Part shown: positions 29,232 through 55,812 of the stretch, piece by piece
Layout: every line of letters starts with the position of its first letter
Numbering within the stretch: position 1 is the stretch's first letter
Source: Strigamia acuminata
Lineage: Eukaryota > Arthropoda > Chilopoda > Geophilomorpha > Linotaeniidae
Assembly: GCA_949358305.1 (NCBI GenBank)
Contig: OX442317.1
Coordinates: 12,158,186-12,222,185, forward strand
DNA length: 64,000 nt
Direction: 5' to 3'
The notes under the pieces: generated by a model
What the model saw: only the letters and a program-made list of their open reading frames with translations
The model's database searches: none
What the model was told of the DNA's origin: nothing
Program-made: the position numbers and the translations under genes

Positions 29232-29507
29232 CAAATGGGATCAAAAGTTTATTCTTCCAAATCATTGCTTGGATGTTGCTAAAACTTACATTGAAGCCTT
29301 CTAATAAGGTTTAAACACTATTTCAGAACATTCAGAGACATTGGTCTTGTGATGTTTGTGCTAAGTCAACTGTGATGTCAAATGAGATCAAAAGTTTATT
29401 CTTTCAAATCATTGCTTGGATGTTGCTAAAACTTACATTAAAGCTTTCTACTAAAGTTTAAACACTATTTCAGAACATTCAGAGACATTGGTCTTGTGGT
29501 GTTTGTG
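29232..29507 (-). repeat. Inverted satellite piece within element B tail
   Basis: About two monomers of the flanking satellite in reverse orientation: a tcccatttgacatcac type and an aaactttag type, the same neighbours as in the array. It ends at ggtgtttgtg, after which the sequence changes to the exon-containing fragment. Confidence 0.95.
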
Positions 29508-32525: not shown

Positions 32526-35500
32526 TCAGTCCAGTTCAAGAGCTCTCACATGCTTAACTGATCTTTTCAGTTCACGTCCATCGGGTAGCACCACTTTAAT
32601 GACTCGGGTAAAACCATCCTCACCTGGAAAAATCTCCTTTATCCGGGCAAGTGGCCAAAAATAGGGATTTGTTCCTATTTTTTCTAACAACACGATCTGA
32701 TTCACTTTAGGGTTTTTGAAATTTTTATCACCTTTGGTCTCATAAAAATTTCGCAATTGCATAAGATAACCTTTTCTCCACACTCTCCAAAATTCCCAAA
32801 TGAACTGTCTGCGTTTAATGTCTAATTTTCTTAAATCTGTCTTTTTGATGGCACTCAATTTTTTGTTTATAAGGTATTTTGGTAAACCACCGGTTAAAAA
32901 ATTTTCAGGCGCCAAAATTCTGCCTCCATCAACACTGTCGGGAACGTAGGACAAAGGTCTTGAATTTAATACGGAACTAATTTCCAAAGCTAAAGTTTGA
33001 AGAGTCTCCAAATCAACGGTATATCGAAGCAAAGTTTTTCGAAGTTTATCTTTAACTGAACGGACAAGGCGTTCCCATGCCCCTCCCATCCAGGGGGACA
33101 GTGGTGGAATAAAAGTCCATAACACTCTTTTTTCAGATAGGAAAGTTTGTATGTCCTTGTGACCAATGAGCTTGCCCCATGATTGTAACTCCACACTACC
33201 GCGTTCAAATGTTTTGCTATTATCTGAGAATATTTTGGCAGGATATCCAAAGCGAGCTCCAAATCGTCGCATTGCTAACAAAAACTTGGGAACAGAAAGG
33301 TCTTCGGACACTTCTAAATGTAGGCTTCTTGTCACCATACACGTGAATAAAAGAATATAAACCTTTTTTCGTTCCTTTTTGTTGTTGCCAACATAAATGG
33401 GTCCAAGATGATCAATTCCAGTGTGTTGGAATGGAGCCGCTGGAGTTACGCGTTCAGTGGGAAGGTCACCAGTAGAAGGGTTATTTCTTGCAAGTTTAGC
33501 ACGTCTGCAAATTGCACACTCTCGAATAACTGTTTGAATTGTTTTCCTTCCTCTTATGATCCAAAATTGTTCACGTAAGTGATAAAGAGTTTCACTAATA
33601 TCACCGTGAAGTAGTTCTAGATGTGCTTTTCTGATCAACAGTCGTGTTATCCAACTATCGTAATGCAAAATAATGGGATAGACTTCATCAAATGTCAATA
33701 AAGATTTTTTCAAACGGCTATGAAGTCTAAGTAATCCGTTTTCGTCAATAAAGAGTTCGAAATTTCTCAAAGTGGAATGTTTGCTTAATTCTCTTTTGTT
33801 TTTCACGTCTTCGACTTCCTCTAAAAAATGTAGTTTCTGCGAAAGTTTTAAGATCTTCAGTTGGTTTGCCTCCAACTCGAGTGGCGAGAGGGGCTCACCG
33901 CGAACAAGTTGACTTTTCCATCTCATTATGTAGGAAAACACTCTCAAAAGTCGATTGTAGTTGCTAAAACGTCGGAAAAATTTGTAAATAAAATTCTCTT
34001 TCACTTGAATAGTCATAACAATTAATTTTCTCTCTTCATCGGGTGGGTTTTCCTGTATAACTTCTTTCTTTTCCAGTTTTGATACATCAACTCCGTCCCA
34101 CCAAAGTTTATTGTTCATCAATGTTTTTGAGTTGTGTGGACGGGTCAATAAGTCAGCTGGGTTGAATTCGGTTGGCACATGAGACCATTGCTCAGGCTTG
34201 GAAAAGGAAATAATTTCCTGAACTCGATTTGAGACATATGGTTTCCAAACATTTTTGTCTGAATTAATCCAGGCGAGTGTAATAGTGGAGTCCGAGTAGT
34301 AACGAACTTCAGTGACGGGATATCCAGGAAGAAAGTTCTCGAGCAGATATTTTGTCATTCTGACTCCAACCACTGCTGCTGTTAATTCGAGTCGAGGAAG
34401 AGTAACTTTTTTGGCCGGCGCAATGCGGCATTTACTTAACAACAATGTTCTTTTGCCCTTCATGTTGACGACAAAAATCGTGCAGCCAAATGCTTTTGTG
34501 CTGGCGTCACAAAAAACTTCTAGGGTTATTTCCTGACCTGAATAAGTAGTTAACCAACGTTGAACTTTTAGTTCCTTGAGTTGTTGGATGTCGGAATTCC
34601 ATTCTTCAATTTCTTTTTTCTCCAAATCAAGAATCTTTTCATCCCATTTTTTCGTCCGAGCCCAGATCGCTTGAATGAGCAATTTCATTTGCAGAATCAC
34701 AGGAGCCAAGAGTCCCATGGGATCGAAAATTGAAGCTAAAAATGAGACAACTTCTCGCTTTGTAATCGGAATTTTTTCAATTTTCGGTATTTTAAACATT
34801 ATCATGTCCTTTTCTGTGTCCCAAAGTATGCCGAGCATTTTAATGATTCCAAGACTAGAAAACTCCTCGCCCCGCATGTGGAATCCCTCTTTTTTCAAGT
34901 TCTCGAAGACGTCTTTACTGCAAGTCGCCCACTTCACAAGGGGAAGTTTTCCGCTGTCTAAAATCATTTTTAACCTCTCGCAATGTGTCGTCGTGTCGGC
35001 TGGAAAATCTCCTCCAGATGTTAAGTCATCCATAAAAATTCCATCATCAAGCGCATCAACTTCTTTGGCGTGTGTTTTCTCAAATTGTTTTGCATGTTTG
35101 CGAATGGTTGCGCATAGGAGGAATGGTGAGGAAACAACACCAAAGGGCACGACGATCATTCTCAGGATCATAATGTTGTTCCACAGATTTTGCCACGAAT
35201 AAGGCTGTTTAAAATAATCACGAGCCACCCACAGAAAGCGTAGAAAGTTTCTTTGAGTCGGGTTGATCATAACCTGCAGGAATGCCTGCTTGATATCCGC
35301 TATTATCGGGATGCAATAGAGACGAAATCTCACAATCACAAGAATTAAGTCAGGGTTGAGGGAAGGTCCCGGAAATAAACAGTCATTGAGGGAAAGTTTT
35401 CCTTTTTTGGATGAAGACGCGTTAAACACTACTCTAAATTTGGAAGTATCTCGATCCTCTTTTATGACGGGGTGGTGAGGTATATTATATATCCCCTTCT

Positions 35501-37760
35501 TGAGAAAACGTTCCTCCTTTGGGACTTCCTCCGCGTGATTTTCCTCGATGTACTGCCACATTGAGTCGTCGTAACGTTTTTTATAGTCCTCATTTGCATC
35601 GATTCGTTTAAGCGTATTTGCGAGTTGATTCATTGCCAACTCCCAATTCGATTCTAACTCTTTTTCCTGTCCATTGAAGGGGAGCATCACTTCATATCTT
35701 CCGTCCTCCAAACGTGTTGTCGTGGATTCGAATCGATCTCGAATAAAGTCGGAATCCTTTTCTCCCGAATCTATCCCGATTGCCTCCAAATTCCAGAGCT
35801 TGTCCAACTTCTCATTTATATCAACGTTGCAAGTGTTGCAACACGTGGTTAAGTCGGCTTCATCATCAAATAAATCGATGTTTTCAGCTGCACCGGTGAG
35901 AACCCAGCCAAATAAAGTGTTTATAAGGCCCAAATCCTCGTTGATTTTCCTCTTGCCGTCTTTGAGAATTTTCCACCAAACATCCACTCCTAATAAAATG
36001 TCAATTTGGGATGTTTTGGCAGGCAATTCTTCAGCCAACTCAAGATTTAATCCTCTCACCTTTTCTATTACAGTGGAGTTTAAAATTCCTTGTACTCTTG
36101 GTAGATTTTCGACCGATAACATTGTCATTTTGATTTCTTGTGTGTCATTTCTGCTTTTCAAAGTAACGTTAAAAACGTCATAATCCGTTGAAGCAGGAGT
36201 AGAATCATTGAAGCGTTGTGTCGTGGCCGAAATGCTGCCGCACTTTTTCAACTTGATTCTTTCTACTAACTCAGTTGTTATGAAAGATCGGTGACTGCCT
36301 GGATCTATCATTCCTCGGATGTTGTGGGATCCTCCATTTTTGGTTTTGAGGTTCGCAGTGAAGATCATTAATTGAAGAGTCGCGGAGATCGCGCACGAGA
36401 CGTGTGTTGTCACTTGTGGCTCCTTGGGCTTCTCGACAATGCTTGATGAATTCTTCACATCCGATTTTCTACAAATGGTGGAGTGGTGTCTTCCGCCACA
36501 ATGTTTGCAGGAAAACTTCACTTTACAGTCCCCGACGCGATGGCCAGTTCTAAAACAATTGAAGCAAAGTCTATTCTTTTTGATGATTTCAATCTTCGCA
36601 TTAACTTCGAATTCCTTTTTGCATGAACCATTCAAATGGTCTTCTTCACAAAAAATACATTTGATGGTCTTCGAGTTGGAAGATTTGTTGTCTTGTTTGG
36701 ACTCTCCGGACTTCACTTTAGCATTTGATTGCGGCTTAGAATCTTGAGTCGCAGCACACGTGGTCATGGAACCCTTTTGCTTGCCTTTTTCGACTTCAGT
36801 TTTCTCCTTCTTCACTTTTTCAGAATGAGAAGAATTGTCAGTTCTTTCCGCCATAGCTACTTCTTTCAAGAAAAAGTCAAGTAGTGTCATAATGTTCTTG
36901 TTTTGAATTCCATGCACTTGATAAAAACGCAATGCCATTTGAGTTGGAAATTTGCTGATAATATCCGGCATGAGAAAAGCACCTGAAGTTTGTATGGGTA
37001 TTTTCAACTGCTCGAGGAGTCTGACGGTTGAAGAAATTTTGGTTAAATTTGTTCTTAACGCTTTAGTTGGATAAACACTTGTAACAATTTTCATTTCTCT
37101 AATTGATCTGATGAGGGCAGTTTGCTGTGCGTCCTCATCCCCGTAGTTTCTCTCCAACTCTTCACGAGCCAAATGGTATGATTCCTCGATCAAGGGAAAA
37201 GTGGAAATCAAAGTGGCTGCTTCACCAACACACATTGTCTGTAGATATTGAAGCTTCTCCACGTCGCTCAAGTCTGGGTCCTTATGTACTGAAGTTTCAA
37301 AGTTACTTTTGAAGGTCTTGTACTTCAAAATGTCCCCATCAAACTTCACAGACTCCAATTTTGGCAACTTCTGGATTTTTCGGAAAGAAGCATTCATTGT
37401 CGTATGACCGCCAGATGCAGTTGACATATTTAGTCGTCCTCCCAGTGTAGGAAGGGACCGTTTCGATACTTCCCAACGTCCGCGGAGAAGATCCACTCTT
37501 GTTTGAACTGCTTCGAGTTTTTCAATGGCTTCAAGATAAAATCCATGTTCAGAATGTATTTGAAGATCATTGAGTTCATTGACAGCACGTGTCTCTCGAA
37601 TATTTGCTGTAGATAATAGCGCCTCCAACTCTCCCGGGTCGCTGGTCTGCTCCGATACAGTCAGCAAAGCGGAGAGTGAAGTGAGTAGCGCTTCCCATTT
37701 TGTCTCCAGAATCTCGAGTTGTTCTGGAGTGATCATGTTTTGCACGGAAGGATCTGCCAT
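32526..37760 (-). CDS. gag-pol: Gag-Pol polyprotein of BEL/Pao element B, intact
   Basis: 1744 codons in one frame with no stop; ATG context aaaacATGg. Domains by approximate residue: helical N-terminus 1-110; DUF1759-like Gag 130-300; Lys-rich linker; zinc knuckles 368-435 (CIFCEEDHLNGSC, CFNCFRTGHRVGDC, CKHCGGRHHSTIC); aspartic protease with MIDPGSHRSF near 487, an unusual Pro after the Asp; reverse transcriptase 770-960 with ADIKQAFLQV and FMDD; RNase H with FCDAST near 1083 and YSDSTITLAW; integrase with the zinc region to CAICRRAK near 1415, then Asp in GIDHLGP (about 1450), Asp in SDNSKTF (about 1511) and Glu in GAWERLV (about 1562); C-terminal domain 1640-1744. Gag, protease and Pol are one frame without a frameshift site, so stoichiometry must be set in some other way, perhaps by splicing. 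With matching LTRs this is the best candidate for an active copy. Confidence 0.96.
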   Translation of the reverse strand: MADPSVQNMITPEQLEILETKWEALLTSLSALLTVSEQTSDPGELEALLSTANIRETRAVNELNDLQIHSEHGFYLEAIEKLEAVQTRVDLLRGRWEVSKRSLPTLGGRLNMSTASGGHTTMNASFRKIQKLPKLESVKFDGDILKYKTFKSNFETSVHKDPDLSDVEKLQYLQTMCVGEAATLISTFPLIEESYHLAREELERNYGDEDAQQTALIRSIREMKIVTSVYPTKALRTNLTKISSTVRLLEQLKIPIQTSGAFLMPDIISKFPTQMALRFYQVHGIQNKNIMTLLDFFLKEVAMAERTDNSSHSEKVKKEKTEVEKGKQKGSMTTCAATQDSKPQSNAKVKSGESKQDNKSSNSKTIKCIFCEEDHLNGSCKKEFEVNAKIEIIKKNRLCFNCFRTGHRVGDCKVKFSCKHCGGRHHSTICRKSDVKNSSSIVEKPKEPQVTTHVSCAISATLQLMIFTANLKTKNGGSHNIRGMIDPGSHRSFITTELVERIKLKKCGSISATTQRFNDSTPASTDYDVFNVTLKSRNDTQEIKMTMLSVENLPRVQGILNSTVIEKVRGLNLELAEELPAKTSQIDILLGVDVWWKILKDGKRKINEDLGLINTLFGWVLTGAAENIDLFDDEADLTTCCNTCNVDINEKLDKLWNLEAIGIDSGEKDSDFIRDRFESTTTRLEDGRYEVMLPFNGQEKELESNWELAMNQLANTLKRIDANEDYKKRYDDSMWQYIEENHAEEVPKEERFLKKGIYNIPHHPVIKEDRDTSKFRVVFNASSSKKGKLSLNDCLFPGPSLNPDLILVIVRFRLYCIPIIADIKQAFLQVMINPTQRNFLRFLWVARDYFKQPYSWQNLWNNIMILRMIVVPFGVVSSPFLLCATIRKHAKQFEKTHAKEVDALDDGIFMDDLTSGGDFPADTTTHCERLKMILDSGKLPLVKWATCSKDVFENLKKEGFHMRGEEFSSLGIIKMLGILWDTEKDMIMFKIPKIEKIPITKREVVSFLASIFDPMGLLAPVILQMKLLIQAIWARTKKWDEKILDLEKKEIEEWNSDIQQLKELKVQRWLTTYSGQEITLEVFCDASTKAFGCTIFVVNMKGKRTLLLSKCRIAPAKKVTLPRLELTAAVVGVRMTKYLLENFLPGYPVTEVRYYSDSTITLAWINSDKNVWKPYVSNRVQEIISFSKPEQWSHVPTEFNPADLLTRPHNSKTLMNNKLWWDGVDVSKLEKKEVIQENPPDEERKLIVMTIQVKENFIYKFFRRFSNYNRLLRVFSYIMRWKSQLVRGEPLSPLELEANQLKILKLSQKLHFLEEVEDVKNKRELSKHSTLRNFELFIDENGLLRLHSRLKKSLLTFDEVYPIILHYDSWITRLLIRKAHLELLHGDISETLYHLREQFWIIRGRKTIQTVIRECAICRRAKLARNNPSTGDLPTERVTPAAPFQHTGIDHLGPIYVGNNKKERKKVYILLFTCMVTRSLHLEVSEDLSVPKFLLAMRRFGARFGYPAKIFSDNSKTFERGSVELQSWGKLIGHKDIQTFLSEKRVLWTFIPPLSPWMGGAWERLVRSVKDKLRKTLLRYTVDLETLQTLALEISSVLNSRPLSYVPDSVDGGRILAPENFLTGGLPKYLINKKLSAIKKTDLRKLDIKRRQFIWEFWRVWRKGYLMQLRNFYETKGDKNFKNPKVNQIVLLEKIGTNPYFWPLARIKEIFPGEDGFTRVIKVVLPDGRELKRSVKHVRALELD

Positions 37761-40241: not shown

Positions 40242-40710
40242 CATCACAGTTGACTTAGCACAAACACCACAAGACCAATGTCTCTGAATGTTCTGAAATA
40301 GTGTTTAAACCTTAGTAGAAAGCTTTAATGTAAGTTTTAGCAACATCCAAGAAATGATTTGGGAAAATAGACTTTTGATCTCATCACAGTTGACTTAGCA
40401 CAAACACCACAAGACCAATGTCTCTAAATGTTCTGAAATAGTGTTTAAACCTTAGTAGACGGCTTCAATGTAAGTTTTAGCAACATCCAAGCAATGATTT
40501 GGGAGAATAGACTTTTGATCTCATCACAGTTGACTTAGCACAAACACCACAAGACCAATGTCTCTGAATGTTCTGAAATAGTGTTTAAACTTTAGTAGAA
40601 AGCTTTAATGTAAGTTTTAGCAACATCCAAGCAATGATTTGAAAGAATAAACTTTTGATCTCATTTGACATCACAGTTGACTTAGCACAAACATCACAAG
40701 ACCAATGCAG
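40242..40710. repeat. Satellite between element B and Copia fragment
   Basis: About 3.3 monomers. Their types (aagaaatg type, gacggc type, aaactttag type, start of the next) continue the order interrupted at 29192 and show that element B inserted into an existing array. The last monomer breaks off at gaccaat(g). Confidence 0.97.
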
Positions 40711-41156
40711 AAACGATGCGAAGCGAAAAAGGCATTGATCTGCCATATCGAGAATTAGTCGGATCTTTGCTATTTCTCGCACGAATGACGAGACCAGACA
40801 TCCTGTACGCAGTCAGCGTTTTGGCGAGATATTCTTCAAAACCCAGTATCGTCGCCTGGATGCATCTTGAGCATTTATTTAATTATGTGAGATCGACCCC
40901 GTATCAGTGCATTAAGATGAAGAGACCAGAACGTGTTGTCTTTCACTGTTATTCCGATGCATCATTTGCGTCCGATATCGACACACGCAGATCGGTTTCT
41001 GGCCACATCGTGTTTTTGGGCCATGATGCCGTCACTAAATTTATTAGTGAGTGTGGTGTGGTTGTGTGGCTCGAATTTTGTGCGCACAGCGTTTTGTGCA
41101 AGGAGAAGGTCTTTAACAGACAATGTGAGTGCCTGCAACAAGCAGACAATGGATGA
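40711..41156 (+). pseudogene. Copia-type RT C-terminus and RNase H remnant
   Basis: The frame encodes the typical Copia stretch LPYRELVGSLLFLARM, TRPDILYAVSVLARYSSKP and the start of RNase H, HCYSDASFASDIDTRRSVSG followed by HIVFLGHDAVT. After that the similarity to the normal RNase H end is lost and the frame stops at 41154-41156. The upstream RT core with the catalytic Asp pair is missing because the sequence starts at the satellite junction. It cannot encode an active polymerase. A fortuitous frame that overlaps it from 40933 is simply an upstream extension of the next ORF. Confidence 0.85.
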
Positions 41157-43080
41157 CACACACAAGGCACAATTGAAGATGGAAACACATGGACAGAATG
41201 TCTTTAACGGACAGGCAGTGTATAACGCACTTAATGAACAATTGAAAAGGAAAATTAGTGTTCTTGGAAAAGAGAAATTTGATTTGTGTTTTGATTATGA
41301 CAAAAGTGTATTGTTACTAACCCATTTAGTCTGTAAGAGCGCATTAACAGAAAACATTGATGTTATGGCAGGGGCCATTAGTGATCTAGTTTTGACACTT
41401 TGTGCAATGCATGTGCATGTGAGAGAAGCGAATGGGGTTAGCAGTAACAAAGTGCAGGGCACTAGTGATGGTAATCAGAACAGCAACGTGGTTGATTCAA
41501 ATGTGATTTTGAATGCCATGAATGATGTGCAAAACATCAAATCCCAACATGGACACGGGGATTTAGAATATTTGAACAAGGTTCAAATTAGAAAAAGAAA
41601 TAAAGAATTGAATTTCACCACAATTAAAGGTGGTAACCCTCTTAATTTTGTTAAAATGAAGAAAGAAACTAGGCCTAAATTGACAGAAATGGAACATTCG
41701 AACCGGGTTCGGAATGAAAAGAGAGAGGGGGACCCAGATAATATGAAAAAGGGTTTTGTAAGCAATAGGAAATTGCATGGTGCAACCTTAATTAAGGGAA
41801 GTGATCTTCCAAAGGGGATTTCAGGGAAATCCAAAAAGGGTTTGAGTAACCAAAAGTCAAGTATGACAACAAGGATTAAACAGAATGGTCCCTTAAATTC
41901 TGGTATTAGAAACCAGAAACAGAATTCTAGTCATGGAAATGTTAGAAAACAGGAAAACAGTATGGATTTTAGATTCAAGGACAAGGTCCTCCCATTTAAA
42001 TTATGGCATACCCGGATGGGGTATTTGAATGAAGAAAGCATTTATGTTATGAATGGATCAACAGATGTTTTTGGTGTTCAATTGGAGAACACAGGGACCT
42101 CTCCTATAACAGGAGATTTGACAAAGAAGAATATTCCCTCAACACAGAAGAATAATGACAGGAAAGCTTTAGAAGCTGTACATTTGAGTGTTTGGAGGGC
42201 CCCACATGCAACTGGGGAAAAATATGTCATTATAATAGATGATTGTACTGAATATGTATGGTTTAAACCATTAAAGGGAAATAGCTTTTTACTAGAATTT
42301 CAAAAGTGGTTAGCTGAAATTAAATGCTTGAGAGGAACTGTGAATGAAGTTCATTTGGGCCCTGGAATGGAATTTTCCATAGAAGAATTAGCAGCATGGG
42401 TTGAAGCAATGGAGAATTTCGGAATTACAATTGATGGTGTAGATTCTAAGAACCTAATGGCTGACTCCATCTCCGAGAGGGCCAATGCAGACATCATAAG
42501 CGGGGTGGAAAGTTTGATTGTAGAAAATAGATTTCCAAGTTATTTGTGGTTGGAGCTAGCCAACACAGTAACATACTTAAGAAATAGAGCCCCCAGGATT
42601 GATTTAGATTGGAAAACCCCACGCAATATATTGTATGACAGATGTATTTCTGTGCGACACCTTAGGTGTATTGGGTCAAGGGTAGAGGTTTTTCATGTTA
42701 AAAATGGACAGAAGTGTTCATGGATGGGTGCTCTAGTTGGATATTCGAATACACAGAGAAAATATCGAGTCTGGGACCCAAGGAAAAACAGGATTTTTCA
42801 AACGAATAATGTACAAGTAGATGAGTGGAGTTATTGGCACGAGGGGGAAGTTAAACCCTCTCTGGGAATTTCTAATGTGGGCCAAACTTCAGGTAGTGAA
42901 GGAATTGAAATTCCATCGACGGTTGTTGGAGTGCCAACATCTCCTCTGTTTGAAATGCTTTCCCCATGGCGAGTAGGATCTGAGAATCCCCCATTGTCAT
43001 TAAGCAAGGAAAGGGAACACTTAGGAAGTATTGAAAGTATGTCATCTTTGTTGATGACCATTCGGAATATGTGTGGTTGA
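41149..43080 (+). CDS. ORF1: integrase-like protein without catalytic Asp residues, Copia-derived
   Basis: 643 codons from the ATG at 41149; the frame is open further upstream to 40933 but there it is the wrong frame of RNase H. Residues 1-100 are probably helical and unrecognised; 100-280 are basic and low-complexity. Near residue 285, LPFKLWHTRMGYLNEESI matches the Copia pre-integrase region, but the second zinc ligand is Tyr and the Cys pair is absent. An integrase-like core follows: YVIIIDDCTEYVWF (358), LGPGMEF where the second catalytic Asp should be, and ISERANADI (about 444), which keeps the Glu. Then come YLRNRAPR, SVRHLRCIG, ALVGYSN and YRVWDP, all Copia integrase C-terminal landmarks. 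The first catalytic Asp position is also replaced (VHLSVW). The ORF is long and clean for a dead enzyme, which suggests a structural or DNA/chromatin-binding role. Confidence 0.75.
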   Translation: MDDTHKAQLKMETHGQNVFNGQAVYNALNEQLKRKISVLGKEKFDLCFDYDKSVLLLTHLVCKSALTENIDVMAGAISDLVLTLCAMHVHVREANGVSSNKVQGTSDGNQNSNVVDSNVILNAMNDVQNIKSQHGHGDLEYLNKVQIRKRNKELNFTTIKGGNPLNFVKMKKETRPKLTEMEHSNRVRNEKREGDPDNMKKGFVSNRKLHGATLIKGSDLPKGISGKSKKGLSNQKSSMTTRIKQNGPLNSGIRNQKQNSSHGNVRKQENSMDFRFKDKVLPFKLWHTRMGYLNEESIYVMNGSTDVFGVQLENTGTSPITGDLTKKNIPSTQKNNDRKALEAVHLSVWRAPHATGEKYVIIIDDCTEYVWFKPLKGNSFLLEFQKWLAEIKCLRGTVNEVHLGPGMEFSIEELAAWVEAMENFGITIDGVDSKNLMADSISERANADIISGVESLIVENRFPSYLWLELANTVTYLRNRAPRIDLDWKTPRNILYDRCISVRHLRCIGSRVEVFHVKNGQKCSWMGALVGYSNTQRKYRVWDPRKNRIFQTNNVQVDEWSYWHEGEVKPSLGISNVGQTSGSEGIEIPSTVVGVPTSPLFEMLSPWRVGSENPPLSLSKEREHLGSIESMSSLLMTIRNMCG

Positions 43081-44621
43081 GACCGCTAAATAAGAGTATT
43101 TTGAGCGAATTTCAAGAATGGTTATTTGGAATGGGACACGCAACTGAGAAAATAGTTAAGAAAATTAGATTAGGTCCCGGGATAATTTCTTCACTAGAGG
43201 AATGGAATCAATTCACTGAAACTAGAGGAATTGAAATTGACAAAGGGGAATTTGATGATTTGGATCTCACTTCCATCACTGAAAAGGCAAACATTGACAT
43301 CTTAGAGGGGATGAGGATTTTGTTTTTAGAAAATAAATTCCCCGACAATTTGTGGTTGGAACTTGCCAACACAATGGTCTATTTAAGGAATAGAGCCCCG
43401 AGGATTAATTTGAATTGGAAATCCCCATACAATATATTGCATGACCGATGTGTATCGGTACGGCACCTTAGATGCGTGGGATCTAAAGTGAAGGTTTTTA
43501 ATGTCAAAAATGGGCAAAAGAGTTCCTGGGTAGGTGCTCTAGTAGGTTATTCAAATTCATACAGGAAATACCGTGTCTGGGACCCAGTAAAAGATAAAAT
43601 TTTCCAAGTTTTTCCAAACAATATGAAGATATGTGAGTGGAATTATTGGCACGAGGGGGAAGTGAAACCTTCTCTGGAATTTCAATATCAATTTCTTAAG
43701 ATTGATCAAACTTTGGCTATTAACGGAATTGAAATTTCTTCAAAGGTTGTAGTGCCAATATCCCCTCAATTGGAAGTGTCCTCCCCAGTGTTGACATATG
43801 AGGAAGTTAAAATTCATAAGTGTATTCCAAACGAGGGGGAACACTTGAGGGAAATTGAACAGAATTTCGAACAGAATTTTGAGCATAGATTTAAACAAGA
43901 AGTCCCCTCATCATTAGAATTGGTGAAATTGTCACTAGGTAAAGAAGTTGACATTAATGAGTGTAGAAGTATTGAACACGTTGGGCAACAGTTGGAAATG
44001 GTTGAATTAAATCAATATGATCCTTCAACGACACAGGGGGATTATAGAGTGGAAACGGTCCGTGAACATGACCACACTTGCGATTCACCACGGGGTGAAC
44101 CATGCTCTTTAGGATTTTCCCCAACACCATTGATTGAAATAGGTGGAGAAGATATTGAAAGAGAATTTAAGAAGACAAAGAAATCCAAAAGGAGAAAGAA
44201 AAAGGTTAAGACGAGTAATGGAAGTGAAAACGTTAGCATTTTAGCAACAAAAGTTGATAAATATCAATCAGATCCTATTTCGAATTTATCACCGGATGTT
44301 GGCAGGTCAAATCAGTTTAAGAAACTTGACATGTCTCAATGGCATAGAAGGACCACAATTCGATATATGAAAGATGAGACAAATAGGATTGATGTTTATT
44401 ATGTATCACCATATGGAGATCGATTGTTGTGTATCGAGGATGTAATAATATGGTGTTGCGATAATGGTTTTGAGTTAAATGAATTTCTATTTGATTTTGA
44501 GAATGAAACACCAATACCTCCAGCATATCCTGTAAATAATAATTACATAGATCATGATAACATTAAGGTCGTAGAAGAATTTGATGACATGAGATATGGA
44601 ACATGGGAGATAGGATTTTAA
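43071..44621 (+). CDS. ORF2: second integrase-like unit, basic tract and MBD-like domain
   Basis: 516 codons from an ATG at 43071 overlapping the end of ORF1 in another frame; the frame is open from 43035 and that upstream part already encodes homologous residues (YVIFVDDHSEYVWL). Residues 1-200 repeat the ORF1 integrase-like unit, including LWLELANT, YLRNRAPRI, SVRHLRC, GALVGYSN, YRVWDP and YWHEGEVKPSL, again without catalytic Asp residues. Residues 210-360 are acidic and unrecognised. A strongly basic run at about 368-381 (KKTKKSKRRKKKVK) is a likely nuclear signal. Residues 421-480 fit a methyl-CpG-binding domain: QWHRRTTIRYM, DVYYVSPYGDRLL, a hydrophobic helix and LFDF. The Arg that reads methyl-CpG after the SP-G turn appears to be Leu, so binding to methylated DNA is not assured. 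TAA at 44619 is followed closely by a polypurine tract. Confidence 0.7.
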   Translation: MWLRPLNKSILSEFQEWLFGMGHATEKIVKKIRLGPGIISSLEEWNQFTETRGIEIDKGEFDDLDLTSITEKANIDILEGMRILFLENKFPDNLWLELANTMVYLRNRAPRINLNWKSPYNILHDRCVSVRHLRCVGSKVKVFNVKNGQKSSWVGALVGYSNSYRKYRVWDPVKDKIFQVFPNNMKICEWNYWHEGEVKPSLEFQYQFLKIDQTLAINGIEISSKVVVPISPQLEVSSPVLTYEEVKIHKCIPNEGEHLREIEQNFEQNFEHRFKQEVPSSLELVKLSLGKEVDINECRSIEHVGQQLEMVELNQYDPSTTQGDYRVETVREHDHTCDSPRGEPCSLGFSPTPLIEIGGEDIEREFKKTKKSKRRKKKVKTSNGSENVSILATKVDKYQSDPISNLSPDVGRSNQFKKLDMSQWHRRTTIRYMKDETNRIDVYYVSPYGDRLLCIEDVIIWCCDNGFELNEFLFDFENETPIPPAYPVNNNYIDHDNIKVVEEFDDMRYGTWEIGF

Positions 44622-44776
44622 CTGAAATAATCAAACAGAGGGGGGATGTAGGAAATAACAAACATTTATTTCCATATTTGATTGTTTGACTGTTCTTCAC
44701 CTATGTTTTTGATTGGTCATCGTACTCTTGTGAGTGTGGTTGAAACACACTATCAAATACTCTAACAGAGGGGGTA
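44622..44776 (+). promoter_or_regulatory. Duplicated polypurine tract region of Copia element
   Basis: Two similar signals 130 bases apart: acagaggggggatg (tract 44635-44646, TG at 44647) and acagagggggtatg (44764-44776, TG at 44777). Both are followed by TGT..GGAAA. In Copia elements the polypurine tract primes plus-strand DNA directly upstream of the 3' LTR. The second copy is followed by the better LTR start (TGTTGGAAAG). Confidence 0.65.
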
Positions 44777-45240
44777 TGTTGGAAAGTTGTGATACTTTCT
44801 CAATATGTTCGAGTGTTTGTGTGTGTTGGCATGAGGCATTAGATTAATTGCACATGCTTTCATGTATTATAGTTGATTATTATTTGTTGCTTTGTAAATA
44901 TCCGGTTCATATTGTTAGTTTATCCTTAATTTATTCAGTTGTGACATACTGTATTGTAAATATACAGCCAGTATGATTAATTGTTTATTATTGTCATTTG
45001 TATTGGCCTGGTTTATTTATCTAAGTTATATCCTTTGGTTATTTTCAAAGAGGACAAATCACTATTGTGGTTATTGTTTAAATGATTTGTTCTTACTTTA
45101 TTATCATTTCATGTAATCTCAGACCCATGTGGTCTAGTGCTCACTTGGTTCCCAGTTTTCAGTCATTAAAGATGGCAGCCACCTGTGTGGCATGTTTTGC
45201 TAAGTTTTCACAAGTTGTCAGGGCTCACCTCATTGCAGTA
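44777..45240 (+). repeat. Copia-type 3' LTR, right end uncertain
   Basis: Starts TGTTGGAAAG after a polypurine tract, the classic Copia LTR beginning, and extends about 464 bp to the satellite junction at 45240/45241. The end reads cattgcagta rather than a clear CA terminus, and no second copy is in the window, so the end may be truncated by a base or more. It is AT-rich and contains agatggcagcc near 45171-45181, similar to YY1-type motifs. A 65-codon frame across the junction is not considered real. Confidence 0.65.
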
Positions 45241-48200
45241 AATTTTTCTGAATGTTCTGAAATAGTGTTTAAACCTTAGTAGAAGGCTTCAATGTAAGTT
45301 TTAGCAACATCCAAGCAATGATTTGGAAGAATAAACTTTTGATCCCATTTGACATCACAGTTGACTTAGCACAAACATCACAAGACCAATGTTTCTGAAT
45401 GTTCTGAAATAGTGTTTAAACCTTAGTAGAAGGCTTCAATGTAAGTTTTAGCAACATCCAAGCAATGATTTGGAAGAATAAACTTTTGATCCCATTTGAC
45501 ATCACAGTTGACTTAGCACAAACATCACAAGACCAATTTTTCTGAATGTTCTGAAATAGTGTTTAAACCTTAGTAGAAAGCTTCAATGTAAGTTTTAGCA
45601 ACATGTAAGCAATAATTTGAAAGAATAAACTTTTGATCTCATTTGACGTCACAGTTGACTTAGCACAAACACCACAAGACCAATGTCTCTGAATGTTTAG
45701 AAATAGTGTTTAAACCTTAGTAGAAGGCTTCAATGTAAGTGTTAGCAACATCCAAGCAATAATTTGAAAGAATAAACTTTTGATCTCATTTGACATCACA
45801 GTTGACTTAGCACAAACACCACAAACCAATGTCTCTGAATGTTCTGAAATAGTGTTTAAACCTTAGTAGAAGGCTTCAATGTAAGTTTTAGCAACATCCA
45901 AGCAATGATTTGGGAGAATAGACTTTTGATCTCATCACAGTTGACTTAGCACAAACACCACAAGACCAATGTCTCTGAATGTTCTGAAATAGTGTTTAAA
46001 CCTTAGTAGAAAGCTTTAATGTAAGTTTTAGCAACATCCAAGAAATGATTTGGGAAAATAGACTTTTGATCTCATCACAGTTGACTTAGCACAAACACCA
46101 CAAGACCAATGTCTCTAAATGTTCTGAAATAGTGTTTAAACCTTAGTAGACGGCTTCAATGTAAGTTTTAGCAACATCCAAGCAATGATTTGGGAGAATA
46201 GACTTTTGATCTCATCACAGTTGACTTAGCACAAACACCACAAGACCAATGTCTCTGAATGTTCTGAAATAGTGTTTAAACTTTAGTAGAAAGCTTTAAT
46301 GTAAGTTTTAGCAACATCCAAGCAATGATTTGAAAGAATAAACTTTTGATCTCATTTGACATCACAGTTGACTTAGCACAAACATCACAAGACCAATGTC
46401 TCTGAATGTTCTGAAATAGTGTTTAAACCTTAGTAGAAGGCTTCAATGTAAGTTTTAGCAACATCCAAGCAATGATTTGGAAGAATAAACTTTTGATCCC
46501 ATTTGACATCACAGTTGACTTAGCACAAACATCACAAGACCAATGTTTCTGAATGTTCTGAAATAGTGTTTAAACCTTAGTAGAAGGCTTCAATGTAAGT
46601 TTTAGCAACATCCAAGCAATGATTTGGAAGAATAAACTTTTGATCCCATTTGACATCACAGTTGACTTAGCACAAACATCACAAGACCAATGTTTCTGAA
46701 TGTTCTGAAATAGTGTTTAAACCTTAGTAGAAAGCTTCAATGTAAGTTTTAGCAACATCCAAGCAATAATTTGAAAGAATAAACTTTTGATCTCATTTGA
46801 CGTCACAGTTGACTTAGCACAAACACCACAAGACCAATGTCTCTGAATGTTCTGAAATAGTGTTTAAACCTTAGTAGAAAGCTTTAATGTAAGTTTTAGC
46901 AACATCCAAGAAATGATTTGGGAAAATAGACTTTTGATCTCATCACAGTTGACTTAGCACAAACACCACAAGACCAATGTCTCTAAATGTTCTGAAATAG
47001 TGTTTAAACCTTAGTAGACGGCTTCAATGTAAGTTTTAGCAACATCCAAGCAATGATTTGGGAGAATAGACTTTTGATCTCATCACAGTTGACTTAGCAG
47101 TAACACCACAAGACCAATGTCTCTGAATGTTCTGAAATAGTGTTTAAACTTTAGTAGAAAGCTTTAATGTAAGTTTTAGCAACATCCAAGCAATGATTTG
47201 AAAGAATAAACTTTTGATCTCATTTGACATCACAGTTGACTTAGCACAAACATCACAAGACCAATGTCTCTGAATGTTCTGAAATAGTGTTTAAACCTTA
47301 GTAGAAGGCTTCAATGTAAGTTTTAGCAACATCCAAGCAATGATTTGGAAGAATAAACTTTTGATCCCATTTGACATCACAGTTGACTTAGCACAAACAT
47401 CACAAGACCAATGTTTCTGAATGTTCTGAAATAGTGTTTAAACCTTAGTAGAAGGCTTCAATGTAAGTTTTAGCAACATCCAAGCAATGATTTGGAAGAA
47501 TAAACTTTTGATCCCATTTGACATCACAGTTGACTTAGCACAAACATCACAAGACCAATGTTTCTGAATGTTCTGAAATAGTGTTTAAACCTTAGTAGAA
47601 AGCTTCAATGTAAGTTTTAGCAACATCCAAGCAATAATTTGAAAGAATAAACTTTTGATCTCATTTGACGTCACAGTTGACTTAGCACAAACACCACAAG
47701 ACCAATGTCTCTGAATGTTCTGAAATAGTGTTTAAACCTTAGTAGAAAGCTTTAATGTAAGTTTTAGCAACATCCAAGAAATGATTTGGGAAAATAGACT
47801 TTTGATCTCATCACAGTTGACTTAGCACAAACACCACAAGACCAATGTCTCTAAATGTTCTGAAATAGTGTTTAAACCTTAGTAGACGGCTTCAATGTAA
47901 GTTTTAGCAACATCCAAGCAATGATTTGGGAGAATAGACTTTTGATCTCATCACAGTTGACTTAGCAGTAACACCACAAGACCAATGTCTCTGAATGTTC
48001 TGAAATAGTGTTTAAACTTTAGTAGAAAGCTTTAATGTAAGTTTTAGCAACATCCAAGCAATGATTTGAAAGAATAAACTTTTGATCTCATTTGACATCA
48101 CAGTTGACTTAGCACAAACATCACAAGACCAATGTCTCTGAATGTTCTGAAATAGTGTTTAAACCTTAGTAGAAGGCTTCAATGTAAGTTTTAGCAACAT

Positions 48201-51200
48201 CCAAGCAATGATTTGGAAGAATAAACTTTTGATCCCATTTGACATCACAGTTGACTTAGCACAAACATCACAAGACCAATGTTTCTGAATGTTCTGAAAT
48301 AGTGTTTAAACCTTAGTAGAAGGCTTCAATGTAAGTTTTAGCAACATCCAAGCAATGATTTGGAAGAATAAACTTTTGATCCCATTTGACATCACAGTTG
48401 ACTTAGCACAAACATCACAAGACCAATGTTTCTGAATGTTCTGAAATAGTGTTTAAACCTTAGTAGAAAGCTTCAGTGTAAGTTTTAGCAACATGTAAGC
48501 AATAATTTGAAAGAATAAACTTTTGATCTCATTTGACGTCACAGTTGACTTAGCACAAACACCACAAGACCAATGTCTCTGAATGTTTAGAAATAGTGTT
48601 TAAACCTTAGTAGAAGGCTTCAATGTAAGTGTTAGCAACATCCAAGCAATAATTTGAAAGAATAAACTTTTGATCTCATTTGACATCACAGTTGACTTAG
48701 CACAAACACCACAAACCAATGTCTCTGAATGTTCTGAAATAGTGTTTAAACCTTAGTAGACGGCTTCAATGTAAGTTTTAGCAACATCCAAGCAATGATT
48801 TGGGAGAATAGACTTTTGATCTCATCACAGTTGACTTAGCACAAACACCACAAGACCAATGTCTCTGAATGTTCTGAAATAGTGTTTAAACCTTAGTAGA
48901 AGGCTTCAATGTAAGTTTTAGCAACATCCAAGCAATGATTTGGAAGAATAAACTTTTGATCCCATTTGACATCACAGTTGACTTAGCACAAACATCACAA
49001 GACCAATGTCTCTGAATGTTCTGAAATAGTGTTTAAACCTTAGTAGAAGGCTTCAATGTAAGTTTTAGCAACATCCAAGCAATGATTTGGAAGAATAAAC
49101 TTTTGATCCCATTTGACATCACAGTTGACTTAGCACAAACACCACAAACCAATGTCTCTGAATGTTCTCAAATAGTGTTTAAACCTTAGTAGAAGGCTTC
49201 AATGTAAGTTTTAGCAACATCCAAGCAATGATTTGGGAGAATAGACTTTTGATCTCATCACAGTTGACTTAGCACAAACATCACAAGACCAATGTCTCTG
49301 AATGTTTTGAAATAGTGTTTAAACCTTAGTAGAAAGCTTTAATGTAAGTTTTAGCAACATCCAAGCAATGATTTGGGAGAATAGACTTTTGATCTCATCA
49401 CAGTTGACTTAGCACAAACATCACAAGACCAATGTCTCTGAATGTTCTGAAATAGTGTTTAAACCTTAGTAGAAAGCTTTAATGTAAGTTTTAGCAACAT
49501 CCAAGAAACGATTTGGGAAAATAGACTTTTGATCTCATCACAGTTGACTTAGCACAAACACCACAAGACCAATGTCTCTAAATGTTCTGAAATAGTGTTT
49601 AAACCTTAGTAGACGGCTTCAATGTAAGTTTTAGCAACATCCAAGCAATGATTTGGGAGAATAGACTTTTGATCTCATCACAGTTGACTTAGCACAAACA
49701 CCACAAGACCAATGTCTCTGAATGTTCTGAAATAGTGTTTAAACTTTAGTAGAAAGCTTTAATGTAAGTTTTAGCAACATCCAAGCAATGATTTGAAAGA
49801 ATAAACTTTTGATCTCATTTGACATCACAGTTGACTTAGCACAAACATCACAAGACCAATGTCTCTGAATGTTCTGAAATAGTGTTTAAACCTTAGTAGA
49901 AGGCTTCAATGTAAGTTTTAGCAACATCCAAGCAATGATTTGGAAGAATAAACTTTTGATCCCATTTGACATCACAGTTGACTTAGCACAAACATCACAA
50001 GACCAATGTTTCTGAATGTTCTGAAATAGTGTTTAAACCTTAGTAGAAGGCTTCAATGTAAGTTTTAGCAACATCCAAGCAATGATTTGGAAGAATAAAC
50101 TTTTGATCCCATTTGACATCACAGTTGACTTAGCACAAACATCACAAGACCAATGTTTCTGAATGTTCTGAAATAGTGTTTAAACCTTAGTAGAAAGCTT
50201 CAATGTAAGTTTTAGCAACATCCAAGCAATAATTTGAAAGAATAAACTTTTGATCTCATTTGACGTCACAGTTGACTTAGCACAAACACCACAAGACCAA
50301 TGTCTCTGAATGTTTAGAAATAGTGTTTAAACCTTAGTAGAAGGCTTCAATGTAAGTGTTAGCAACATCCAAGCAATAATTTGAAAGAATAAACTTTTGA
50401 TCTCATTTGACATCACAGTTGACTTAGCACAAACACCACAAACCAATGTCTCTGAATGTTCTGAAATAGTGTTTAAACCTTAGTAGAAGGCTTCAATGTA
50501 AGTTTTAGCAACATCCAAGCAATGATTTGGGAGAATAGACTTTTGATCTCATCACAGTTGACTTAGCACAAACATCACAAGACCAATGTCTCTGAATGTT
50601 TTGAAATAGTGTTTAAACCTTAGTAGAAAGCTTTAATGTAAGTTTTAGCAACATCCAAGAAATGATTTGGGAAAATAGACTTTTGATCTCATCACAGTTG
50701 ACTTAGCACAAACACCACAAGACCAATGTCTCTAAATGTTCTGAAATAGTGTTTAAACCTTAGTAGACGGCTTCAATGTAAGTTTTAGCAACATCCAAGC
50801 AATGATTTGGGAGAATAGACTTTTGATCTCATCACAGTTGACTTAGCACAAACACCACAAGACCAATGTCTCTGAATGTTCTGAAATAGTGTTTAAACTT
50901 TAGTAGAAAGCTTTAATGTAAGTTTTAGCAACATCCAAGCAATGATTTGAAAGAATAAACTTTTGATCTCATTTGACATCACAGTTGACTTAGCACAAAC
51001 ATCACAAGACCAATGTCTCTGAATGTTCTGAAATAGTGTTTAAACCTTAGTAGAAGGCTTCAATGTAAGTTTTAGCAACATCCAAGCAATGATTTGGAAG
51101 AATAAACTTTTGATCCCATTTGACATCACAGTTGACTTAGCACAAACATCACAAGACCAATGTTTCTGAATGTTCTGAAATAGTGTTTAAACCTTAGTAG

Positions 51201-54200
51201 AAGGCTTCAATGTAAGTTTTAGCAACATCCAAGCAATGATTTGGAAGAATAAACTTTTGATCCCATTTGACATCACAGTTGACTTAGCACAAACATCACA
51301 AGACCAATGTTTCTGAATGTTCTGAAATAGTGTTTAAACCTTAGTAGAAAGCTTCAATGTAAGTTTTAGCAACATCCAAGCAATAATTTGAAAGAATAAA
51401 CTTTTGATCTCATTTGACGTCACAGTTGACTTAGCACAAACACCACAAGACCAATGTCTCTGAATGTTCTGAAATAGTGTTTAAACCTTAGTAGAAAGCT
51501 TTAATGTAAGTTTTAGCAACATCCAAGAAATGATTTGGGAAAATAGACTTTTGATCTCATCACAGTTGACTTAGCACAAACACCACAAGACCAATGTCTC
51601 TAAATGTTCTGAAATAGTGTTTAAACCTTAGTAGACGGCTTCAATGTAAGTTTTAGCAACATCCAAGCAATGATTTGGGAGAATAGACTTTTGATCTCAT
51701 CACAGTTGACTTAGCACAAACACCACAAGACCAATGTCTCTGAATGTTCTGAAATAGTGTTTAAACTTTAGTAGAAAGCTTTAATGTAAGTTTTAGCAAC
51801 ATCCAAGCAATGATTTGAAAGAATAAACTTTTGATCTCATTTGACATCACAGTTGACTTAGCACAAACATCACAAGACCAATGTCTCTGAATGTTCTGAA
51901 ATAGTGTTTAAACCTTAGTAGAAGGCTTCAATGTAAGTTTTAGCAACATCCAAGCAATGATTTGGAAGAATAAACTTTTGATCCCATTTGACATCACAGT
52001 TGACTTAGCACAAACATCACAAGACCAATGTTTCTGAATGTTCTGAAATAGTGTTTAAACCTTAGTAGAAAGCTTCAATGTAAGTTTTAGCAACATGTAA
52101 GCAATAATTTGAAAGAATAAACTTTTGATCTCATTTGACGTCACAGTTGACTTAGCACAAACACCACAAGACCAATGTCTCTGAATGTTTAGAAATAGTG
52201 TTTAAACCTTAGTAGAAGGCTTCAATGTAAGTGTTAGCAACATCCAAGCAATAATTTGAAAGAATAAACTTTTGATCTCATTTGACATCACAGTTGACTT
52301 AGCACAAACACCACAAACCAATGTCTCTGAATGTTCTGAAATAGTGTTTAAACCTTAGTAGACGGCTTCAATGTAAGTTTTAGCAACATCCAAGCAATGA
52401 TTTGGGAGAATAGACTTTTGATCTCATCACAGTTGACTTAGCACAAACACCACAAGACCAATGTCTCTGAATGTTCTGAAATAGTGTTTAAACCTTAGTA
52501 GAAGGCTTCAATGTAAGTTTTAGCAACATCCAAGCAATGATTTGGAAGAATAAACTTTTGATCCCATTTGACATCACAGTTGACTTAGCACAAACATCAC
52601 AAGACCAATGTCTCTGAATGTTCTGAAATAGTGTTTAAACCTTAGTAGAAGGCTTCAATGTAAGTTTTAGCAACATCCAAGCAATGATTTGGAAGAATAA
52701 ACTTTTGATCCCATTTGACATCACAGTTGACTTAGCACAAACACCACAAACCAATGTCTCTAAATGTTCTGAAATAGTGTTTAAACCTTAGTAGAAGGCT
52801 TCAATGTAAGTTTTAGCAACATCCAAGCAATGATTTGGGAGAATAGACTTTTGATCTCATCACAGTTGACTTAGCACAAACATCACAAGACCAATGTCTC
52901 TGAATGTTTTGAAATAGTGTTTAAACCTTAGTAGAAAGCTTTAATGTAAGTTTTAGCAACATCCAAGCAATGATTTGGGAGAATAGACTTTTGATCTCAT
53001 CACAGTTGACTTAGCACAAACATCACAAGACCAATGTCTCTGAATGTTCTGAAATAGTGTTTAAACCTTAGTAGAAAGCTTTAATGTAAGTTTTAGCAAC
53101 ATCCAAGAAATGATTTGGGAAAATAGACTTTTGATCTCATCACAGTTGACTTAGCACAAACACCACAAGACCAATGTCTCTAAATGTTCTGAAATAGTGT
53201 TTAAACCTTAGTAGACGGCTTCAATGTAAGTTTTAGCAACATCCAAGCAATGATTTGGGAGAATAGACTTTTGATCTCATCACAGTTGACTTAGCACAAA
53301 CACCACAAGACCAATGTCTCTGAATGTTCTGAAATAGTGTTTAAACTTTAGTAGAAAGGTTTAATGTAAGTTTTAGCAACATCCAAGCAATGATTTGAAA
53401 GAATAAACTTTTGATCTCATTTGACATCACAGTTGACTTAGCACAAACATCACAAGACCAATGTTTCTGAATGTTCTGAAATAGTGTTTAAACCTTAGTA
53501 GAAGGCTTCAATGTAAGTTTTAGCAACATCCAAGCAATGATTTGGAAGAATAAACTTTTGATCCCATTTGACATCACAGTTGACTTAGCACAAACATCAC
53601 AAGACCAATGTTTCTGAATGTTCTGAAATAGTGTTTAAACCTTAGTAGAAGGCTTCAATGTAAGTTTTAGCAACATCCAAGCAATGATTTGGAAGAATAA
53701 ACTTTTGATCCCATTTGACATCACAGTTGACTTAGCACAAACATCACAAGACCAATGTTTCTGAATGTTCTGAAATAGTGTTTAAACCTTAGTAGAAGGC
53801 TTCAATGTAAGTTTTAGCAACATCCAAGCAATGATTTGGAAGAATAAACTTTTGATCCCATTTGACATCACAGTTGACTTAGCACAAACATCACAAGACC
53901 AATGTTTCTGAATGTTCTGAAATAGTGTTTAAACCTTAGTAGAAAGCTTCAATGTAAGTTTTAGCAACATCCAAGCAATAATTTGAAAGAATAAACTTTT
54001 GATCTCATTTGACGTCACAGTTGACTTAGCACAAACACCACAAGACCAATGTCTCTGAATGTTTAGAAATAGTGTTTAAACCTTAGTAGAAGGCTTCAAT
54101 GTAAGTGTTAGCAACATCCAAGCAATAATTTGAAAGAATAAACTTTTGATCTCATTTGACATCACAGTTGACTTAGCACAAACACCACAAACCAATGTCT

Positions 54201-55812
54201 CTGAATGTTCTGAAATAGTGTTTAAACCTTAGTAGAAGGCTTCAATGTAAGTTTTAGCAACATCCAAGCAATGATTTGGGAGAATAGACTTTTGATCTCA
54301 TCACAGTTGACTTAGCACAAACATCACAAGACCAATGTCTCTGAATGTTTTGAAATAGTGTTTAAACCTTAGTAAAAAGCTTTAATGTAAGTTTTAGCAA
54401 CATCCAAGCAATGATTTGGGAGAATAGACTTTTGATCTCATCACAGTTGACTTAGCACAAACACCACAAGACCAATGTCTCTAAATGTTCTGAAATAGTG
54501 TTTAAACCTTAGTAGACGGCTTCAATGTAAGTTTTAGCAACATCCAAGCAATGATTTGGGAGAATAGACTTTTGATCTCATCACAGTTGACTTAGCACAA
54601 ACACCACAAGACCAATGTCTCTGAATGTTCTGAAATAGTGTTTAAACTTTAGTAGAAAGCTTTAATGTAAGTTTTAGCAACATCCAAGCAATGATTTGAA
54701 AGAATAAACTTTTGATCTCATTTGACATCACAGTTGACTTAGCACAAACATCACAAGACCAATGTCTCTGAATGTTCTGAAATAGTGTTTAAACCTTAGT
54801 AGAAGGCTTCAATGTAAGTTTTAGCAACATCCAAGCAATGATTTGGAAGAATAAACTTTTGATCCCATTTGACATCACAGTTGACTTAGCACAAACATCA
54901 CAAGACCAATGTTTCTGAATGTTCTGAAATAGTGTTTAAACCTTAGTAGAAGGCTTCAATGTAAGTTTTAGCAACATCCAAGCAATGATTTGGAAGAATA
55001 AACTTTTGATCCCATTTGACATCACAGTTGACTTAGCACAAACATCACAAGACCAATGTTTCTGAATGTTCTGAAATAGTGTTTAAACCTTAGTAGAAAG
55101 CTTCAATGTAAGTTTTAGCAAAATCCAAGCAATAATTTGAAAGAATAAACTTTTGATCTCATTTGACGTCACAGTTGACTTAGCACAAACACCACAAGAC
55201 CAATGTCTCTGAATGTTCTGAAATAGTGTTTAAACCTTAGTAGAAAGCTTTAATGTAAGTTTTAGCAACATCCAAGAAATGATTTGGGAAAATAGACTTT
55301 TGATCTCATCACAGTTGACTTAGCACAAACACCACAAGACCAATGTCTCTAAATGTTCTGAAATAGTGTTTAAACCTTAGTAGACGGCTTCAATGTAAGT
55401 TTTAGCAACATCCAAGCAATGATTTGGGAGAATAGACTTTTGATCTCATCACAGTTGACTTAGCACAAACACCACAAGACCAATGTCTCTGAATGTTCTG
55501 AAATAGTGTTTAAACTTTAGTAGAAAGCTTTAATGTAAGTTTTAGCAACATCCAAGCAATGATTTGAAAGAATAAACTTTTGATCTCATTTGACATCACA
55601 GTTGACTTAGCACAAACATCACAAGACCAATGTCTCTGAATGTTCTGAAATAGTGTTTAAACCTTAGTAGAAGGCTTCAATGTAAGTTTTAGCAACATCC
55701 AAGCAATGATTTGGAAGAATAAACTTTTGATCCCATTTGACATCACAGTTGACTTAGCACAAACATCACAAGACCAATGTTTCTGAATGTTCTGAAATAG
55801 TGTTTAAACCTT
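45241..55812. repeat. Satellite array 2, continuation of array 1
   Basis: About 73 monomers of the same 147/140-bp satellite in the same orientation. The order continues that at 40242-40710. Markers gacggc at 46149, 47017 and 47885 give 868-bp units. The segment from 45535 to about 49800 repeats rare variants of array 1 (aatttttctg, cttcagtgtaag, agcagtaac, aagaaacgattt) in the same order with one additional 868-bp unit. It breaks off inside a monomer at gtttaaacctt, where element C begins. Confidence 0.97.

Follow-up and report, generated by a model that had tools for sequence, protein, structure and literature searches.

Chromodomains show that retrotransposons with long terminal repeats (LTRs) are able to read histone marks, and LTR elements of the TR-GAG types are non-autonomous and encode one protein. 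In chromoviruses, the chromodomain lies at the C terminus of the Ty3/Gypsy integrase (PMC3605345). Some retrotransposons have captured cytosine methyltransferases (PMC5890265), and LTR elements of bdelloids carry additional open reading frames (ORFs) after pol, which are esterase, exonuclease or envelope-like (PMC5408684). Here, a window of 64,000 nucleotides from Strigamia acuminata (assembly GCA_949358305.1, contig OX442317.1, positions 12,158,186 to 12,222,185) was analyzed, in which two long ORFs, ORF1 and ORF2, encode inactivated Copia integrase units, and ORF2 ends in a domain predicted to have the fold of the methyl-CpG-binding domain (MBD). Our explanation, to which we give a probability of about 70%, is that the locus is a defective mosaic of a non-autonomous LTR element that combines a dead integrase-SH3 module with a basic tract and, in some copies, with an MBD; that this short element descended from Copia elements with an MBD (MBD-Copia); and that the MBD would act in tethering and the short-element protein would co-assemble with a helper.

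Chromoviruses and MBD-Copia are alike in that a chromatin reader follows the integrase, with the same proposed use in site choice. Unlike chromoviruses, MBD-Copia shows the Copia order, in which integrase precedes reverse transcriptase (RT), and the reader is an MBD inside Gag-Pol between SH3 and RT. The likeness to chromoviruses is one of outline only, and by domain content and order these are Copia elements, sharing Gag, CCHC, a protease-type domain, pre-integrase, rve, SH3 and RVT_2 with Ty1/Copia LTR retrotransposons. They differ from ordinary Copia by an MBD of 40–42 bits between SH3 and RT; the alignment of two other Copia families of this genome, L011 and L012, showed none at this position. 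Short elements resemble TR-GAG types in having LTRs, a primer-site-like sequence, one coding region and helper dependence, but their protein is an inactivated integrase and not Gag. MBD1/2/4, MeCP2, the TAM domain of BAZ2 and SETDB2 have the MBD fold in common with the Copia and short-element domains, but those are host proteins. The retrotransposons of PMC5890265 likewise took up part of the host methylation machinery; they carry a writer of methylation, whereas MBD-Copia carries a reader. Bdelloid elements (PMC5408684) share with short elements the presence of unexpected proteins, but theirs are encoded after pol, whereas the short-element ORF replaces gag-pol. A Copia integrase with an MBD was described in none of the papers found, in literature that leaves out most subscription journals and repeat-database reports and so gives no proof of absence.

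ORF1 is a GTG frame at 40933–43080, in which the initial annotation had started at the ATG (41149–43080, forward strand, from the reading frame and Pfam scan), and ORF2 is open at 43071–44621. The Copia integrase motifs named for these frames are present, and SH3_retrovirus (PF25597) scored above its cut-off of 27 in both, with 43.3 bits in ORF1 and 30.4 bits in ORF2. For the residue alignment, the two ordinary Copia integrases L011 and L012 were used as references. In the window units, the CxxC pair is absent, S stands in place of D in H(T/V)D and G in place of D in SDNG, which confirmed the annotated loss of both catalytic Asp residues and of the zinc Cys pair. Of the catalytic triad, the E remains in the two window units but is K in some relatives. 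Neither a complete DDE triad nor the zinc-binding Cys pair of an active integrase was found in the short-element protein; the fold landmarks of integrase are retained in the window units in the alignment with the two Copia polyproteins. A model of the unit, made with 16 sequences (mean predicted local distance difference test score (pLDDT) 74), gave retroviral integrases as its highest-ranking hits (Rous sarcoma virus 1c0m, E 2.0e-9) and 396 chains at E ≤1e-3 in the fold search, with a large whole-chain root-mean-square deviation because the two domains are placed differently. The same unit occurs once in ORF1 and once in ORF2; the two copies share 54% identity over 268 amino acids (aa) and differ with a ratio of nonsynonymous to synonymous substitution rates (dN/dS) of 0.27 over 281 codons. 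Because of this ratio and the intact frames of relatives, the units are more than chance. ORF2 had no match at E ≤0.001 among 5.8 billion proteins and none among viral contigs, and the protein search with profile A1 returned a single match, one ordinary Copia.

Next to the SH3 domain and a linker, ORF2 contains a basic tract, KKTKKSKRRKKKVK (44169–44210, forward strand, from the translation), which relatives carry as well, followed by the MBD-fold domain (44328–44528, forward strand). The Pfam matches that the initial annotation had proposed to look for were obtained in part. Two C-terminal pieces scored 21.1–21.9 bits with the MBD model (PF01429, cut-off 21), the upper value belonging to the piece that delimits the domain, but whole ORF2 reached 18.3 bits, below the cut-off; rve had no match in ORF1 or ORF2, and gag_pre-integrs was weak (13.4 bits, cut-off 28.4). 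Structure prediction bore out the annotation for both the integrase-like unit and the C-terminal domain. The model of the MBD piece had a mean pLDDT of 71, with 84–92 in the core, and all of the first 42 rows of the Foldseek search were MBD/TAM structures (best E 1.0e-3), indicating an MBD fold for the modelled C-terminal domain. Since MBD-Copia rows are part of profile A2, the match of this profile with MBD1 does not count as evidence for the window domain taken alone; the window piece alone gave E 0.1.

The distribution of this protein was examined by searching the genome, which comprises 237.5 Mb in 157 contigs. ORF2 gave at least 96 matches on many contigs (83 scored of 2,676 candidates), many of them in open frames of 850–1,198 aa. 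Eight relatives were aligned. Each has a single ORF (851–1,064 aa; 49–62% identical to the first) with a single integrase-like unit, one SH3 domain, which scored above the Pfam cut-off in seven, and the basic tract. Both catalytic Asp residues are replaced in all eight, and Glu is lost in some. Four of the eight end in an MBD-like domain, and the other four in a short unrelated tail. In L023, L030, L032 and L046 the tail reads LDF/LGF..WDEN.(Y/I)Y in place of the MBD. The C terminus seems to have been exchanged between subfamilies. By a motif scan, the MBD start was found in 16 of the 30 loci L019–L048, among which two copies are each represented in two loci. dN/dS, estimated by the Nei–Gojobori method with dS near saturation in several pairs, was 0.21–0.36 for the integrase-like part (28 pairs), 0.18–0.45 for the MBD of short elements (14 of 15 pairs computable) and 0.39–0.78 for the N-terminal region (15 pairs). 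Because of the first two ranges, the integrase-like part and the MBD appear to be kept as proteins by purifying selection on both folds, and the random decay of all relatives that the initial annotation had named as a refutation was not seen.

Two copies could be delimited, and paired LTRs with TG..CA ends and a 5-bp target duplication were present in both. In the C11 copy, the two LTRs of 439 bp (1141367–1141805 and 1136177–1136615) show 100% identity. This element measures 5,629 bp, starts with TG, ends with CA and is flanked by the duplication AAGAT. It interrupts the gag of a second Copia; that Copia's frame stays open over the empty site. In the C1 copy, the LTRs are about 455 bp (99% identical), the element about 5.93 kb and the duplication GTATG. 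At most one base after the 5′ LTR, both copies show TGGTAGCAGAG, which we take to be able to pair with the 3′ terminus of initiator tRNA-Met. Between the LTRs of these two copies there is no further frame above 300 aa, and no Copia RT was found in their open frames or in the eight scanned ORFs. The leader of the C1 copy holds an open frame of at least 265 aa (C1:32462901–32463696, minus strand, L051). At C7:352508–370501, four short-element protein matches lie about 5.69 kb apart with one TAG each, probably an array of LTR-internal units. These results indicate that the short elements are non-autonomous LTR retrotransposons encoding one long protein, and at least one of them transposed recently. 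Loss of catalysis with a conserved fold is typical of domestication, and the initial annotation had considered a domesticated protein. In this alternative the ORF would be a host gene made from a Copia integrase and an MBD. However, the copies are dispersed on many contigs, and both delimited ones have LTRs and target duplications. For the copies examined, these repeated LTR elements rule out a single-copy host gene outside a mobile element, leaving domestication a nearly negligible probability.

Within the window, the copy of this retrotransposon is a mosaic. Its left flank is a satellite of the 147-bp type (40242–40707; Tandem Repeats Finder, period 140 here). This is followed by a forward-strand RT/RNase H fragment (40703–41023) of a Copia gag-pol, which is identical in 321 of 321 bases to L057, a member of a family with 1,446-aa frames (the frame was seen in eight rows), and whose left end has CAATG in common with the satellite. 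Up to about 41023, the sequence thus belongs to another Copia. The 5′ part of the non-autonomous element (41024–43034, forward strand) comprises the N-terminal region, a gag_pre-integrase remnant, the dead integrase core and SH3 (unit 1); up to about 42970, its best DNA matches are L032, L020 and L030 (87–93%). The natural frame of ORF2 (43035–44621, forward strand) holds the second dead integrase-SH3 unit, the linker, the basic tract and the MBD, with best DNA matches at 43120–44470 mostly to L027 and L021 (79–81%). The second unit begins abruptly and out of frame at a junction near 43035, and in the tree the two units fall in different parts of the short-element family. A forward-strand sequence at 44764–44776, which we take to be a polypurine tract (read from the sequence; a similar one lies at about 44635–44647), precedes the 3′ LTR (44777–45244, forward strand, TGTTGG..., start read from the sequence). 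The region 44730–45244 is 89.8% identical to the 3′ region of L023–L025. On the right follows a 147-bp satellite array (45247–55812; observed/expected CpG 0.07). The copy has only the 3′ LTR and is truncated at its 5′ end.

The window locus is thus a non-autonomous LTR retrotransposon in a defective, mosaic form, with 147-bp satellite arrays around it. It has two ORFs because the units were joined out of frame, and two integrase units as a design do not hold for a mosaic copy whose eight aligned relatives have one unit each. Template switching in reverse transcription may have produced the mosaic, with DNA repair as an alternative, and the join of a short element to an MBD-bearing Copia is one hint of co-packaging. 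A programmed frameshift between ORF1 and ORF2 was considered and is not needed, since the relatives are one ORF with one unit. The RT/RNase H sequence left of ORF1 had suggested an accessory ORF in the env position of an autonomous Copia; this was ruled out, because the flank is 321 bp derived from a different Copia and because pol is absent from the two relatives that were delimited. The frameshift between units, the mosaic structure and the truncated 5′ end would also fit decayed Copia debris with accidental frames. This is true of the window copy only; for the family it is contradicted by relatives with intact ORFs of 850–1,198 aa, by dN/dS well below 1 and by recent copies, and as an explanation of the locus it is very improbable.

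The likely source of the module was found in Copia gag-pol frames of the same genome. The genome search with PF01429 gave at least 150 matches; all 150 scored, of 1,092 candidates, were above the cut-off (best 50.3 bits), and 124 of them lie in open frames of at least 1,300 aa. In each of three stretches studied in detail (L059, L060 and L061), one frame contains rve with D, D and E intact, SH3, an MBD of 40.1–42.1 bits and RVT_2. The MBD stands between the integrase SH3 domain and RT in all three and in a fourth Copia family, the one with 1,446-aa frames (26.5 bits on a piece, 22.1 in a longer stretch). One copy, followed over the adjacent stretches L063, L059 and L062, encodes Retrotran_gag_2, zf-CCHC, Pol_BBD, rve, SH3, MBD and RVT_2 within a single frame and in Copia order, with the remainder of RT reaching to where the frame ends; RNase H of MBD-Copia was placed from a sequence match and not with a Pfam model. 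Moreover, a Copia RT/RNase H match lies 1,080–1,197 bases from 24 of the 26 MBD matches of 44.3 bits, a constant spacing. The L061 MBD matched MBD1 with E 1.8e-8. The scanned stretches contain no chromodomain match, which together with RVT_2 in Copia order sets them apart from chromoviruses, and no methyltransferase domain. In the tree, the pseudo-integrases join the three MBD-Copia integrases of this genome (support 100/97) on a long branch of 1.59. By these sequence comparisons, the short-element module descends from a Copia of the same genome with an MBD between SH3 and RT. Intact relatives sharing the fusion, which the initial annotation had looked to for support, thus exist in two forms, as short elements and, more strikingly, as gag-pol frames of Copia in which a high-scoring MBD separates integrase from RT. 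A protein database search with the L061 stretch, which admits only proteins of 0.55–1.75 times the query length and leaves full polyproteins outside its reach, returned 58 proteins, three with a precomputed MBD. Among eight proteins scanned, P0002, P0004 and P0017 had Pfam MBD scores of 37.1, 27.7 and 24.4 bits, always after SH3, and the MBD of P0002 also precedes RVT_2.

The MBD residues of seven Copia gag-pol rows and ten short-element rows were compared with MBD1, of which R22 and R44 are presumably methyl-CpG contacts. W15 and Y35 are present in all 17 rows. The Copia gag-pol MBDs have R22, D32 and S45 in seven of seven and R44 in six, with K in the seventh. In the short elements, R22 and D32 occur in one of ten, the window copy, and R44 and S45 in none. 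These comparisons indicate that, in the short elements, the folds of the parent module survived while its two active sites were lost. Methyl-CpG reading by the window protein itself, as the initial annotation had proposed, is therefore not upheld. The proposed analogy with chromodomains is carried instead by Copia gag-pol frames, where the MBD follows the integrase. The Copia gag-pol MBD would bind methylated CpG, judging from its conserved residues, and may tether the Copia integration complex to methylated or satellite-rich chromatin, by analogy with chromodomains in chromoviruses. The short-element protein, dead at both sites yet constrained in fold, would co-assemble with a helper Copia integrase and, having lost catalytic and reader residues of its own, would act by contact with this integrase. 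The helper's enzyme and reader would then act on the cDNA of the short element, and an MBD-Copia may be the helper. Tentatively, this could be extended to an old group of invertebrate Copia elements with a working methyl-CpG reader that insert by DNA methylation, a 5-methylcytosine counterpart of the chromoviruses; a class of their parasites would keep only a pseudo-integrase that neither catalyses nor reads methylation, and that enters the helper's integration complex and borrows both functions.

Two other uses of these domains were weighed. The MBD might serve an end other than site choice, such as binding of the element's own methylated DNA, counter-silencing or generic DNA binding in assembly, as would suit short elements that keep the fold though the arginines are lost. 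Against this stand the place of the MBD after the integrase SH3 domain, as with chromodomains, the arginine pair conserved in distant Copia elements and the clustered location on C1, and we judge it a minority possibility, on the unlikely side. The pseudo-integrase might also be an inhibitor, self-regulating or favoured by the host, that acts as a brake by poisoning or limiting the integration complexes of the helper. Uniform replacement of the catalytic Asp residues with a conserved fold is what a dominant-negative subunit would show, but the carrier elements have multiplied and have near-identical LTRs, and a pure inhibitor would not spread them; its chance appears small.

Tethering by MBD-Copia with helper co-assembly remains our preferred explanation, and several points weigh against it. 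The VIA-align Z of the MBD model is below 8, middling by the tool's own note. Half of the eight relatives have no MBD at all; across all eight ORFs, Pfam MBD reached its cut-off in 0/8 and was reported in one (15.5 bits), and rve was found in 0/8. In several pairs dS is near saturation, as noted above. The window copy lacks one of the arginines R22 and R44, and nine of the ten short-element rows lack the two. A single mosaic junction is all that points to a shared helper, and chance DNA repair could account for it. MBD-Copia is called autonomous by domain content because its LTRs were not delimited; no LTR repeat was found between L063 and L062, stretches that end short of the element ends. 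In the tree, no group unites P0002, P0004 and P0017 with the MBD-Copia of this genome while leaving out Copia in which no MBD was detected; it is therefore necessary to assume several gains, losses or truncated proteins. Two further observations speak for the explanation, with reservations. On contig C1, 20 of 37 MBD matches, 8 of 16 short elements and 3 of 71 other rve matches, among the matches listed, lie beyond 60 Mb, a limit picked after the positions were seen (Kolmogorov–Smirnov test without a limit, p 4.7e-6); the sets compared are not age-matched and the control set is itself non-uniform (p 0.008). Survival in gene-poor DNA could explain this skew as well as targeting. The CpG depletion of the satellite (observed/expected 0.05–0.07 in the two long arrays, against about 0.91 in BEL elements and 0.98–1.28 in the ten stretches L009–L018) is a signature of long methylation and no proof of it.

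For the host, C5-methyltransferase (PF00145) gave 12 matches at six places, all above the cut-off, which also speaks for the explanation. The window has long 147-bp satellite arrays at 10635–29507 and 45247–55812 besides the short one at 40242–40707, and BEL/Pao elements and the ORF1/ORF2 feature sit between the arrays. Three BEL/Pao elements are present (3277–8163, 32526–37760 and 58193–63337), two with frames above 1,700 aa. The satellite, with nearly no CpG and raised TpG/CpA, stands beside these young, CpG-rich elements. An ARAGORN call of tRNA-Leu inside ORF1 (42665–42756) is probably spurious, nothing being found there with Rfam at gathering thresholds. Elsewhere in the genome, L001–L007 are DNA elements, perhaps Polinton/Maverick, with an integrase frame of 372–373 aa ending in YFVKWMGYGDEFNSW, a stretch that we take to be chromodomain-like. 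These frames and MBD-Copia together place chromatin-reader-like domains on two unlike integrases in this genome.

An MBD beside a working integrase may let Copia elements read DNA methylation when picking insertion sites. If a methyl-CpG reader on a Copia integrase is true, it would link DNA methylation directly to the integration site, give a natural reagent for methyl-directed integration and offer a reason why satellite arrays gather certain elements. The pseudo-integrase would offer a case, open to testing, in which a transposon parasite encodes a subunit without catalysis for the machinery of its helper.

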